A DNA stretch of 21,669 bases from a virus. The position numbers were made by a program, and so were the translations under genes. The DNA is taken from positions 1-21,669 of IMG/VR virus record IMGVR_UViG_3300032235_000458; one strand, written 5' to 3'. Positions 10,635 to 17,465 of the stretch are shown here, in pieces; positions within the stretch are counted from its first letter, which is position 1; every line of letters starts with the position of its first letter. The notes beneath the pieces were generated by a model, which was not told the DNA's origin, did not search any database, and saw only the letters and a program-made list of their open reading frames with translations.

Positions 10635-13358
10635 ATGCCGCGCGCCGTAACTGTGGTTTTCTCGGACGGCAAAGTGCGCGTCTACGAGAACGTGCCTGAC
10701 GACGTTACGCCAGATCAGGTTGAGGACCGGGCGCGGGGTGAATTTCCTGACCGGCAGATTACCGAGGTCATGGGCGGCAACCTCGTTAACCGTCAGTTGC
10801 GCGACGCGATTGCGACGCGGCAGGCGACGGTCGAAGATTTGCAGGCCATCGCGCGGCGCTATGATTACCAAATCCAGCCGGACGATTTGGACACCTATCA
10901 GCAGTGGATTGATTTTGCTGCTAACCGCCCGAACGTCGCTATTCCCGAAAACATCCACACCGCGCCGGTCAGCAGGACGCGTGCGTTTGCAGAAGGAGTG
11001 GAGACGGGTACGCGTTCCGTCTCTGACACGCTGGTCGGCGCATGGGCGTGGCTGGCGGACAAAGGCGCTCAACTTGGCATCACCCCGACACCCGAAAACG
11101 CCACTCGCATTTTTGCGCGGCTTAACGCTTACTCACCAGAAGAAGCCGACGCTTTCGCCCGCAACATCGCAGCGCGGGGGTTGTCGTGGAGTGACCTAGT
11201 GTCGGCTGGCACTGAAGCCGTGCGCCAGCGGCCTATCGCCATTGCCTCCCAAGAACAGCGCCCCAACTATTTTACCGGCGGCAATATCGCGGCGCAGATC
11301 GCCACCACGGCACCCGCCATAAGCACTCTTGCTACGCGCGGCGCGGCGGCCACCGCGACGGCGGCACCGCGTGTGTCCAATTTCTTTCGTTCCGTTGGTT
11401 CTGGCGGTATTGGCGTTCGCGCGGCCACACCGGAAGCTATTGCCGCAGGCGCACCCGTCGCCGCGACTTTTGGTGGGCGCATCGCCTTGCGGGGCGGCGG
11501 CGGCGGAGCGGCGGCCATTGCAGGGTCCGCCATGACGGGAAGCGACGCTGAAAACGCCCTTTTTGAAGGCCTTATTGGGGGCACCATTCCGTTTGGGGCG
11601 ACGCTTGTTCGGCGTGGCGCAGGAGCCACCTATGACCTTTTTGCCGGTCGGTTGGGTGAAGCGCGGGCAGCCGAAATTTTCCGCAATCTGATCGCCGACA
11701 ACGCCGACGAAATCATGACGGCGTTGCGCGAAGCGCCGGCCAACGCGCGTGCCAACGTCGCGGAATTTCTGGCGTCGCGCAATCTGCTTAACCCAGAAAT
11801 AGCGGCGGCCACGCGCATCGGCGCGGCCAGTTCCGCTGGCCAGCCGTTGACCGACGTGGCCGTCGCGCGTGCTGCTGGGCAAAACGAGATGCTGAACACG
11901 TTGCGCGGCGGCGCGACGGGCACCGAAGCCATGCAGAACATTGGTGCCATGCGGCAGGGGGTGCGTACCGAAACCGACCCTCTACGCGCCGAAGCGCTGT
12001 TTCAGGCGGATATTGGCCGCACGCGTATTATCCCCGCCGAACGTGAAGCCGAAAGGCTTGACGCGCTGGCTGCCGAAATTAACAGGGCGGGTATCGTCCC
12101 TCGTATGCGCGGGCTGGAAGGCCGTTCGCGCGAACAGTTGGATGTGGCGTTCCAAAACCCTGAATTTTTCACGCTTGACGGGCCGATGGCGCGCACTGGC
12201 GAAATAGCCGATCAAGCTGGCCGCCGCGCCGACGAAGGGATTGAAGCGCAATTGGGCTTCCGCGACGCAGCCCGTTTGTCACGCGAAGCCGCCGAAAATT
12301 TGCGGGCGCAAGGGCTTTCGCCGCTCAACATCGCGGGCGTCGTCGGCAACCTGCGTGCCGCCGCGCGCGAGGCGCAATTCGTAAACTCACCTCGATATGA
12401 TGTGCTGACGTCTTTTGCCGACGACCTACAAAACCGCGCGCGTATGATGGGCGGCATCATCGACGCCAGAGGCCTGTACGAAATTCGCAAGGGTATGAAC
12501 CAAAGAATTGCCGACTTGTTGCAAGGCACCGACCCGTCAGCGCTGCAACGCCGCACGGCGGAAATTGTTGGTGAAGTTAAGCCGCTGATCGACAACGCTA
12601 TCAGGACGGCTGGCGGGCGCAATTGGGATGAATATCTGAACCGCTTTACGGCGGGCATGGAGAATGTCGAACGCCAACAGTTTGGCCTTCGGCTGGCTGC
12701 GCTACCGCGCAACCGGCTAGAGCAGGTCATGTCCGGCAACGACCCTAAATTTGTGACCGACTTTTTCGGGCCGGGAAATTACGACATCAACGCCGCGCTG
12801 TTTGGTTCGCAGCTTCCCGTCGCGCAACGATTGGCCGGCGAAATCGGCGTTGACCGCGACGTCGCGGCGCTTGGCCTGCGCGGCTTGCCTGCAGAAACGC
12901 GTGGTCCGTCAATGGCGGGCGCTCGCGCACGCGTCACAGAAATGATGGCTCCGGGCCTTGGGCCTGTGTCACGCGCGTTCTTCAACGTCACTGGCCGCGT
13001 CCCCGGCCTTTCCGGCGGCGGTATTGCGGCGGAGCAAGCGGCCCGCGAATTTTCGGAGCGGATGTCTGAAAACGCAATGCGTAATCTGGTCCCCGCGCTG
13101 GCCGACCCAGCGGAAGCCGTGCGGCTGGCGGGCGTGCGGTCGGCTAACGCCATGACGGCGGGCGCGTTTGATCGTCTGCCGCCCATGGCGCGCACATACG
13201 CGTCGCAGACGCTCCAGCAATTGATGAACCCGCCAGCGCCGCAAGCCGTCATGCCTTCCGAGGGTGAACTGCCGCCGCCCGGTCAAATGTTCCTCGGTTT
13301 CCAGACAGGCCCGAACGGCGAGGCAATTCCAATCTACGGTCCAGCAGGGGGGCTTTAA
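10635..13358 (+). CDS. Large DNA-ejection (internal virion) protein, gp16-like by position
   Basis: The 907-aa product starts with a small domain, MPRAVTVVFSDGKVRVYENV followed by PDDVTPDQVEDRA, that is common at the N-terminus of large phage internal proteins. Around residues 210-320 lies a Gly/Ala-rich, partly hydrophobic zone (GGGGGAAAIAGSAMTGS) that could insert in membranes. The rest is helical and charged, including MGGIIDARGLYEIRKGMNQR, a motif recurrent in podovirus ejection proteins. P22 gp16 (609 aa) occupies the same slot. I see no convincing lysozyme or transglycosylase motif. GAGGGGG at 10624-10630 precedes the ATG, and the stop overlaps the next start (TAATG), tying it to the lysis cassette. 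Confidence 0.76.
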   Translation: MPRAVTVVFSDGKVRVYENVPDDVTPDQVEDRARGEFPDRQITEVMGGNLVNRQLRDAIATRQATVEDLQAIARRYDYQIQPDDLDTYQQWIDFAANRPNVAIPENIHTAPVSRTRAFAEGVETGTRSVSDTLVGAWAWLADKGAQLGITPTPENATRIFARLNAYSPEEADAFARNIAARGLSWSDLVSAGTEAVRQRPIAIASQEQRPNYFTGGNIAAQIATTAPAISTLATRGAAATATAAPRVSNFFRSVGSGGIGVRAATPEAIAAGAPVAATFGGRIALRGGGGGAAAIAGSAMTGSDAENALFEGLIGGTIPFGATLVRRGAGATYDLFAGRLGEARAAEIFRNLIADNADEIMTALREAPANARANVAEFLASRNLLNPEIAAATRIGAASSAGQPLTDVAVARAAGQNEMLNTLRGGATGTEAMQNIGAMRQGVRTETDPLRAEALFQADIGRTRIIPAEREAERLDALAAEINRAGIVPRMRGLEGRSREQLDVAFQNPEFFTLDGPMARTGEIADQAGRRADEGIEAQLGFRDAARLSREAAENLRAQGLSPLNIAGVVGNLRAAAREAQFVNSPRYDVLTSFADDLQNRARMMGGIIDARGLYEIRKGMNQRIADLLQGTDPSALQRRTAEIVGEVKPLIDNAIRTAGGRNWDEYLNRFTAGMENVERQQFGLRLAALPRNRLEQVMSGNDPKFVTDFFGPGNYDINAALFGSQLPVAQRLAGEIGVDRDVAALGLRGLPAETRGPSMAGARARVTEMMAPGLGPVSRAFFNVTGRVPGLSGGGIAAEQAAREFSERMSENAMRNLVPALADPAEAVRLAGVRSANAMTAGAFDRLPPMARTYASQTLQQLMNPPAPQAVMPSEGELPPPGQMFLGFQTGPNGEAIPIYGPAGGL

Positions 13359-13531
13359 TGACGACTATCGACAAGACCGAAGCGCGGCTAGACACGCATG
13401 AGGAAGTGTGCGCGCTGCGGTACGCCAGCATTTGCGCTCGGCTGAAGCGGTTGGAAGGCATCGGCCTGAGCGTGGCCGGCACCATCATCATGCTGCTAAT
13501 CGGCATTCTGATGAAGTTGGCTTTCGTATGA
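13358..13531 (+). CDS. Small one-TM membrane protein, XhlA/holin-accessory-like
   Basis: This 57-aa gene was found by hand. It reads MTTIDKTEARLDTHEEVCAL at the start. A charged helical N-terminal half of about 33 residues is followed by one hydrophobic segment (GIGLSVAGTIIMLLIGILMK, residues 34-53). This short helix plus single C-terminal TM resembles XhlA-type lysis accessory proteins. The context supports lysis: it overlaps the ejection gene stop by one base and the endolysin start by four (ATGA), and a second membrane protein follows the endolysin. It could be a holin, antiholin or holin helper. The family assignment rests on architecture only. Confidence 0.72.
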   Translation: MTTIDKTEARLDTHEEVCALRYASICARLKRLEGIGLSVAGTIIMLLIGILMKLAFV

Positions 13532-14020: not shown

Positions 14021-14179
14021 ATGCTTAAAGGCTATCGCACCTACATCATGGCCGGGCTGGGCGTCGTCAGCGCCGCCGCCAGCTACCTCGTCGGTGACGT
14101 GGACCTGCTGACGGCGGCGAACGCGGCGTTCACCGCCGCAGCCCTAGCCTTCCTGCGTGCTGGCGTCCCTCGCGCGTAG
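14021..14179 (+). CDS. Putative holin
   Basis: This 52-aa gene is easily missed. It starts MLKGYRTYIMAGLGVVSAAA and has two moderately hydrophobic stretches, about residues 8-24 and 33-46, joined by a short acidic turn (VGDVDLL). Small proteins starting LKGYRTY, placed after the endolysin, are a recognised phage holin type. It would form inner-membrane holes that release the endolysin. AGGAG at 14008-14012 gives good spacing to the ATG. Its last 36 bases overlap the end of the opposite-strand DUF3310 gene. No Rz/Rz1-type spanin follows. Confidence 0.75.
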   Translation: MLKGYRTYIMAGLGVVSAAASYLVGDVDLLTAANAAFTAAALAFLRAGVPRA

Positions 14180-16288: not shown

Positions 16289-16316
16289 TTGCACAACATT
16301 TTCGTGCGTGTATGGT
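16289..16316 (+). promoter_or_regulatory. Sigma70-like promoter for the replication operon
   Basis: TTGCAC (16289-16294) and TATGGT (16311-16316) are separated by 16 bases. Each matches four of six consensus positions. Transcription would begin near 16323, leaving a short leader before the ATG at 16347. It lies in the only clear divergent intergenic region of the window, which raises the likelihood that it is real. Confidence 0.5.
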
Positions 16317-16346: not shown

Positions 16347-17465
16347 ATGCAACATAGTAGGATTGTTGGCGGTTCGACCGCCAAGCGCGTCATTGCCTGC
16401 CCCGGCAGCGTGGCGCTGGTGGACAAGATGCCGCCGAAGCCCAGCAGCAGCTACGCCAACGAAGGCACGCTGCTTCACGACACCATCGCCGACGTGCTTG
16501 ACAAGGGCTTTGCCCCCAGCGACTTCATTGGCCGTACCTATGAAGGTATCGTGCTGACTGAGGAACTGATTGAGAGCAAGCTGGCCCCGGCGCTGGCCGC
16601 GCTTGACGAAGTCGACCCCACAGGAGAGATGGAGTATGCAGTCGAAAGTCGGGTTGGTTTTGGCGATCTTCTGCCTGACGTTTTTGGTTCTACCGATCTT
16701 CTTGGTCGCGTTGGTGATCGAGCGGTTGTTCTGGATTGGAAGTTTGGCGACGGCGTCGCTGTCGAGGTCGAGGAGAACAGCCAGCTTCTCTTCTACGCTG
16801 CGGCGGCTATCCGTACGGCGGAAACGGCGTGGGTGTTCGACGGAGCCAAGGAAGTCGAACTGATTATCGTGCAGCCGCCCAGCGTCAAGCGCTGGACGAC
16901 GACCGTGGAACGCATCAAGGCGTTCGAACAGGAGTTGGTCGCTGCCGTCAAGATTGCCATGAAGCCCGACGCGCCGCTGGCCGCTGGCGACCACTGCAAA
17001 TGGTGCGCCGCCAAGCCTGTCTGCCCTGTCATGACGGGCGCAGTGGACCGGCTGGTGCGCGAGAAGATTGACCAACTGCCGGTCGAGCAAATCGCCCACT
17101 ATCTCAATCAGTTGCCCGTCATCGAAGGGTTCCTGAAGGACTTGCAGCAGTTGGCGCATGGCGTGCTGGAGGAAGGCCGGAGCATCCCCGGCTGGAAGCT
17201 GGTCAACAAGCGTGCGACGCGCAAATGGACGGACGAGGACAAGGCCGCCGCGTTCTTGGAAGATAACGGCATCGCGCCGTTCGAGTTCAAAGTCCTCTCG
17301 CCCGCTGCGGCGGAGAAGGCACTGAAGAAGGAAAAGATCGAATTGCCGGCGGACCTTGTGGTCGCCGTCTCCACAGGCTCAACCCTTGCGCCGGAAAGTG
17401 ATAACCGGCCAGCGGTTCTGCAAATCGGCCAAACGCTGTCAAAGGCAATGGCTAAAATCCAGTAA
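16347..17465 (+). CDS. DUF2800 protein, RecB/Cas4-like PD-(D/E)XK nuclease
   Basis: The start at 16347 has GTGAGG 7 bases upstream and is preferred to an in-frame ATG at 16308, which overlaps the promoter -10. The 372-aa product shows EGTLLHD (H44), GSTDLLG (D117), VVLDWKFG (D130, K132) and QLLFYAA (Q146, Y150), the active-site order of RecB/Cas4-type nucleases (DUF2800, PF10926). C18 plus C217-x2-C220-x5-C226 match the four cysteines that hold an iron-sulfur cluster in Cas4/AddB proteins. It is probably a DNA exonuclease for replication or recombination. Codons between 16647 and 16745 are unusually T-ended, where an overlapping reading frame lies. Confidence 0.87.
   Translation: MQHSRIVGGSTAKRVIACPGSVALVDKMPPKPSSSYANEGTLLHDTIADVLDKGFAPSDFIGRTYEGIVLTEELIESKLAPALAALDEVDPTGEMEYAVESRVGFGDLLPDVFGSTDLLGRVGDRAVVLDWKFGDGVAVEVEENSQLLFYAAAAIRTAETAWVFDGAKEVELIIVQPPSVKRWTTTVERIKAFEQELVAAVKIAMKPDAPLAAGDHCKWCAAKPVCPVMTGAVDRLVREKIDQLPVEQIAHYLNQLPVIEGFLKDLQQLAHGVLEEGRSIPGWKLVNKRATRKWTDEDKAAAFLEDNGIAPFEFKVLSPAAAEKALKKEKIELPADLVVAVSTGSTLAPESDNRPAVLQIGQTLSKAMAKIQ
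16636..16863 (+). CDS. Candidate embedded membrane-peptide gene inside the DUF2800 gene (+1 frame)
   Basis: The 75-aa frame begins MQSKVGLVLAIFCLTFLVLP. Residues 5-28 are one long hydrophobic segment, followed by ER, a short aromatic patch and a strongly basic tail (about 15 Arg/Lys in residues 44-73). AGGAG at 16622-16626 stands 9 bases before its ATG, made by codons ACA GGA GAG of the host gene. The host gene uses T-ended codons in 22 of 33 positions over 16647-16745, against roughly 13 of 77 in flanking codons. T at that position is what makes the second base of the embedded codons hydrophobic. The product would be a single-span membrane protein of unknown role. A recombined low-GC patch is the alternative. 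Confidence 0.45.
   Translation: MQSKVGLVLAIFCLTFLVLPIFLVALVIERLFWIGSLATASLSRSRRTASFSSTLRRLSVRRKRRGCSTEPRKSN

Follow-up and report, generated by a model that had tools for sequence, protein, structure and literature searches.

A probable membrane-peptide gene nested in the +1 frame of a tailed-phage DUF2800 nuclease gene

The DUF2800 nuclease gene of a tailed-phage genome record very probably contains a second gene, an open frame read in +1 at 16636–16863 (plus strand), as judged from comparison of sequences. The record, IMGVR_UViG_3300032235_000458, comprises 21,669 bases, was analyzed at its full length (hereafter, the window), and carries tailed-phage head, tail, lysis and replication genes. 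If the nested frame is used, ribosomes would enter the nuclease message internally at the ATG at 16636, directed by an AGGAG 9 nt upstream, and would make a 75-residue peptide (approximately 40–87 residues in relatives), with one membrane helix on its N-terminal side and a short basic C-terminal tail. Since third codon positions of the nuclease gene are second codon positions of the nested frame, selection for a hydrophobic helix would leave T-ended nuclease codons over the same stretch. An embedded +1-frame membrane-peptide gene had been proposed at this place in an earlier note on the window, and the proposal is largely supported, with the start, ribosome-binding site, open frame and hydrophobicity each exceeding codon-shuffle expectation.

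The enclosing gene and the nested start

The enclosing gene (16347–17465, plus strand, 372 aa) was classified by profile matches as a DUF2800 member (PF10926, E 2.2e-62) and as PD-(D/E)XK exonuclease-like (PDDEXK_1, 4.1e-14; PHROG 69 exonuclease, 5.8e-70), and the nested gene inside it is located in the replication/recombination module. A possible sigma-70-like promoter for the enclosing gene (TTGCAC, 16 nt, TATGGT; 16289–16316, plus strand) was picked out by eye and is weak; it was not called by a strict promoter scanner, and resembling TTGCAT/TATGCT boxes lie upstream in several relatives.

Relatives were collected from scans of IMG/VR and bacterial genomes, and the 292 usable copies were collapsed to 157 non-redundant lineages. 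Lineages were scored as ORF+ (127/157) when ATG or TTG stood at the aligned start position and the frame stayed open for 40 codons or more, and otherwise as ORF− (30/157). Expectations were generated by codon shuffling, in which the protein and the codon pool were held fixed and synonymous codons were permuted within the gene. One relative, L021 (IMGVR_UViG_3300007549_000043), is 21669 nt long like the window, with a nuclease only 77% identical, and the shared size is probably a coincidence.

The nested ATG (16636–16638, plus strand) is formed by an enclosing-frame Tyr codon, TAT, and the G that follows, and the start hinges on one synonymous choice, TAT and not TAC. TAT was present at this position in 121 of the 131 lineages that encode Tyr there (53 expected), and ATT, which creates a TTG start, in 20 of the 22 that encode Ile (7 expected), with the expected numbers taken from each gene's own codon usage. 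The Shine–Dalgarno sequence AGGAG, described in the earlier note as standing nine bases before the ATG inside the enclosing gene, is present at 16622–16626 (plus strand), and is replaced by AAGGAG or GGGGAG in many relatives. Anti-Shine–Dalgarno duplex energy averaged −8.4 kcal/mol over the 127 ORF+ lineages, compared with a codon-shuffle mean of −5.2 kcal/mol, and was −1.1 kcal/mol in the 30 ORF− lineages. The first 40 nested codons were open in 140/157 relatives, with approximately 67 expected; the split by composition was 48/62 for low-GC3 relatives (12 expected) and 92/95 for the remainder (55 expected). Preservation of start, ribosome-binding site and open frame was a check suggested in the earlier note, and all three are kept above codon-shuffle expectation. 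Three marks of an overlapping gene are found here: a frame open beyond what the enclosing protein imposes, a start and ribosome-binding site of its own, and a peptide composition under selection.

Three other readings of this segment were discarded. Programmed frameshifting from the enclosing frame was ruled out, because a stop stands in the +1 frame of several relatives, one codon ahead of the start; the window segment folds no better as RNA than its shuffles (z +0.9); and a terminator-like site at 16701–16722 gave the same values as shuffles.

Membrane segment and T-ended codons

The predicted membrane-spanning segment comprises nested residues 5–28, VGLVLAIFCLTFLVLPIFLVALVI (16648–16719, plus strand), with a hydrophobicity z of 4.9–5.1 against codon shuffles. 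When all 23 window genes were scanned in five alternative frames each, no alternative frame scored above this one (z 5.0), and a single further strong hit emerged, a true holin gene overlapped by an over-extended endolysin start, which served as an unplanned positive control. This holin-like gene (13358–13531, 57 aa) precedes the endolysin, whose start is likely ATG 13529, not GTG 13408; another small membrane protein is encoded at 14021–14179. The same type of test, performed with 20-residue windows, gave z 2.0 for phiX174 E and z 3.3 for lambda Rz1. Across relatives, most ORF+ lineages had z values of approximately 2.5–5.8 (median 3.5), and the ORF− median was −0.05; z was below 1.5 in 11 of the 127 ORF+ lineages. 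After collapsing relatives, 31/33 ORF+ clades were above z 1.5, and 13/14 at the deepest cut. AlphaFold2 predicted one long helix, with block mean pLDDT of 90 or more over nested residues 11–30, and this was left out of the evidence, since any such sequence would be expected to give a helix.

The layout described in the earlier note, 24 mostly hydrophobic residues and then a basic tail, is present, and its first part stands; the tail (16720–16860, plus strand) is another matter. In the alignment it ranges from approximately 4 to 50 residues beyond the helix region, within nested frames of 40–87 codons in total, and its charge is largely what Glu codons of the enclosing frame yield in +1; the tail is therefore not used as evidence. 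The predicted conserved product has a single span and is roughly 42 residues long.

Over the membrane segment, at 16647–16745 (plus strand), 22 of 33 codons of the enclosing gene are T-ended, compared with 7.0 from codon shuffles (z 6.2), the strongest third-position T patch among the 23 window genes scanned. The switch in codon usage pointed out in the earlier note was thus reproduced, and it is T-specific and coincides with the membrane segment. In the 127 ORF+ lineages the mean third-position T excess was +0.33 in this 33-codon window and at most +0.04 elsewhere in the gene, and it was approximately zero at the patch position in ORF− lineages. At four-fold sites of the enclosing frame within the patch, T is raised and A is lowered in high-GC and low-GC ORF+ members both, so neither AT-richness nor rare codons alone account for the patch. 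Selection on the second frame, which had been put forward as the source of the patch, agrees with the hydrophobicity of the nested frame (z 5.0) and with a T excess confined to the membrane segment.

A reduction of synonymous change had also been anticipated, and here the outcome was divided. Pooled over 67 relatives, synonymous change at 16632–16752 was approximately 1.0 times expected, that is, not reduced, and reduction was seen within the closest, T-rich subclade only, where the lowest ratios were 0.53–0.66 and shared recent history is an alternative cause. What is constrained appears to be the class of residue rather than the exact bases; in our reading, bases could over longer times change freely as long as the residue stays hydrophobic, with Leu, for example, passing to Trp, Cys or Ala via third-position changes. 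Elsewhere in the DUF2800 gene, the 5′ end (16362–16450) shows strong synonymous conservation, with observed/expected down to 0.31–0.34 among closer relatives, much stronger than across the nested gene, and synonymous divergence is raised at 17202–17290 (ratio 1.3–1.6).

Losses in relatives and alternative explanations

On a tree from which the overlapped region had been left out, parsimony gave approximately 12 changes of ORF status, and lineages are for this reason not independent observations. As the case that would speak against the gene, the earlier note had named relatives with an intact DUF2800 frame and +1 stops or a lost start; such relatives were found in about a dozen separate places in the tree. 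Most of these show no hydrophobic excess either, and taken together they have neither the ribosome-binding site nor the T patch, a joint absence to be expected if a real gene had been lost (or had not been there before). Hydrophobicity z was −1.9 to 1.2 in L004, L040, L130, L139/L140, L069, L318/L321, L315/L316 and a 14-member stop-codon clade, and 2–4 in the nearest ORF+ relatives of ORF− lineages. In L004 and L040 the start codon is removed by TAC in place of TAT, a change silent in the nuclease. L064 has no standard start at the aligned position and yet retains hydrophobicity (z 3.7); L080, L152 and L160 do likewise more weakly, and these four may be recent losses or users of another start. 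More distant DUF2800 genes (approximately 30–50% identity, including MW202483 and APSE-1) gave no comparable aligned nested-frame signal. The simplest history would be a single overprinting origin in the ancestor of the DUF2800 clade, followed by repeated loss.

Two further small frames were seen in an ORF− clade. At L072:1007–1159 (minus strand; also in L071, L074, L075 and L079), upstream of the nuclease, lies a gene for a 51-aa protein with an N-terminal membrane span, which is absent from the other loci compared and is possibly unrelated to ORF loss. At L072:6009–6266 (same place in L071, L074, L075, L076 and L079), an 85-codon +1-frame ORF with an SD-like sequence and a hydrophobic segment (z 1.6–2.9) lies within the DNA polymerase gene; as a second nested gene it was set aside as unsupported, the sequences being near-identical only.

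The T patch could instead belong to the enclosing gene, for example as a cluster of rare codons at which ribosomes slow down during folding of the nuclease core, and the membrane frame would then be a by-product, since a third-position T in the enclosing frame always yields a hydrophobic +1 codon. The patch does span the conserved nuclease core (GSTDLLG, DWKFG), T-ended codons are scarce in GC-rich members, and L064 has the patch but no usual start. However, rare A-ended codons drop within the patch instead of increasing, T-ended codons still gain over A-ended ones in low-GC relatives, where they are not rare, and a rare-codon cluster predicts neither the conservation of the TAT/ATT start and the ribosome-binding site nor the absence together of patch, ribosome-binding site and ORF. 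We consider this origin of the patch very unlikely. Still less credit was given to a mosaic segment spread by recombination with a T-rich donor: nucleotide identity within the T-rich subclade is indeed approximately 0.9 in the patch, compared with 0.75 for the rest of the gene, but synonymous divergence is normal across all relatives, and the patch is T-specific, limited to the membrane segment, and found in GC-rich and AT-rich lineages alike, with different bases.

Two other explanations accept the nested gene and differ over its role. A lysis factor of the phiX174 E or levivirus Sgl type, blocking cell-wall synthesis, would match what is seen here in frame relation, in size class and in having an N-terminal span followed by a basic C-terminal part, and part of the subclades have a Pro in mid-helix; this Pro is not conserved, there is no sequence similarity to E, the nested gene sits in the replication/recombination module, and a holin-like gene and an endolysin are already present in the phage (13358–14010), which makes a main lysis role less likely, so that we regard a lysis factor as unlikely. 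Tethering or regulation of the nuclease/recombination complex at the membrane would draw on the co-production with the nuclease that nesting should guarantee, but several DUF2800 lineages with the same gene order lack the ORF, which means that the nuclease works without the nested product, and this role was judged improbable.

No stand-alone homologue of the nested peptide was found by tblastn in 50,697 phage records, and profile searches of Pfam, PHROG and PDB with the nested peptide returned chance-level matches only. The window peptide had no PHROG hit, holins included, and the best Pfam holin match (E 0.037) occurred in 1 of 42 nested-peptide members. In the comparison with phiX174 E, one pair reached a BLASTP E of 0.14, confined to the tail; an Rz1-type lipobox was not found, as the only early Cys follows AIF and is not conserved; and APSE P52, considered as a counterpart, is annotated antisense and at a different place.

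Known systems and possible role

In phiX174, T displaced from third positions of D to second positions of E makes the E membrane domain (PMC8227390). E and the gene described here are alike in lying in the +1 frame of a larger gene, with an internal ribosome-binding site, an N-terminal span, a basic C-terminal part, and membrane codons made by third-position T of the enclosing gene; here, however, the T forms a local patch in an otherwise C/G-ended gene, and the enclosing gene encodes a nuclease, in a tailed dsDNA phage that has a separate lysis cassette. In leviviruses, most functional sgl genes lie within rep, in the +1 frame (PMC7693330). These too are small, with a single span and a Shine–Dalgarno start, often wholly inside an enzyme gene, but they originate frequently and mostly in poorly conserved regions, whereas the ORF here is clade-wide and lies in a conserved nuclease core. 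Lambda Rz1, nested in Rz, is likewise a small +1-frame membrane-associated protein of a tailed phage; Rz1 belongs to the lysis cassette and is a lipoprotein of the outer membrane, and the nested peptide here differs in having no lipobox and no spanin partner, and in belonging to another module. As a kind, then, such a gene is known; as far as sequence and profile searches and the open-licence literature reach, this gene and its family are new.

For the nested peptide, internal initiation on the nuclease message is the mode of translation that its start signals suggest. By the positive-inside rule, its helix would cross the inner membrane and its basic tail would face the cytoplasm, and the peptide would be made together with the early/replication nuclease, not with the lysis genes. 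This timing favors, tentatively, an early membrane microprotein acting on the host envelope, for example in superinfection exclusion or in inhibition of an envelope process, a role that is possible without being probable; besides lysis and nuclease tethering, roles of some other, unspecified kind take up the remaining likelihood. PhiNM1 Gp11 is a small early membrane protein that disturbs host envelope synthesis (PMC11237401). The likeness is functional guesswork and extends to small size, early production and membrane location in a phage that depends on changes to the host envelope (PMC11237401), and Gp11 differs as an annotated phage gene in a Gram-positive system.

The case for the gene is made by separable signals (start codons, ribosome-binding site, open frame, hydrophobicity and T in third positions) that concur over more than 100 lineages, and by about a dozen natural losses or absences that act as controls. 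To our knowledge, nested genes of tailed dsDNA phages have seldom been established from sequence, because they are short and are excluded by gene finders. If the gene is real, a conserved phage membrane protein has been overlooked by annotation, and the codon-shuffle scan, which recovers phiX174 E and lambda Rz1, would be usable on phage genomes for finding more. For the family itself, it may be, more tentatively still, that a clade of tailed phages of freshwater bacteria has, for much of its diversification, carried an early membrane effector, of a gene class overlooked by standard annotation, nested in the catalytic core of its recombination nuclease, where it would block superinfection or an essential envelope process.
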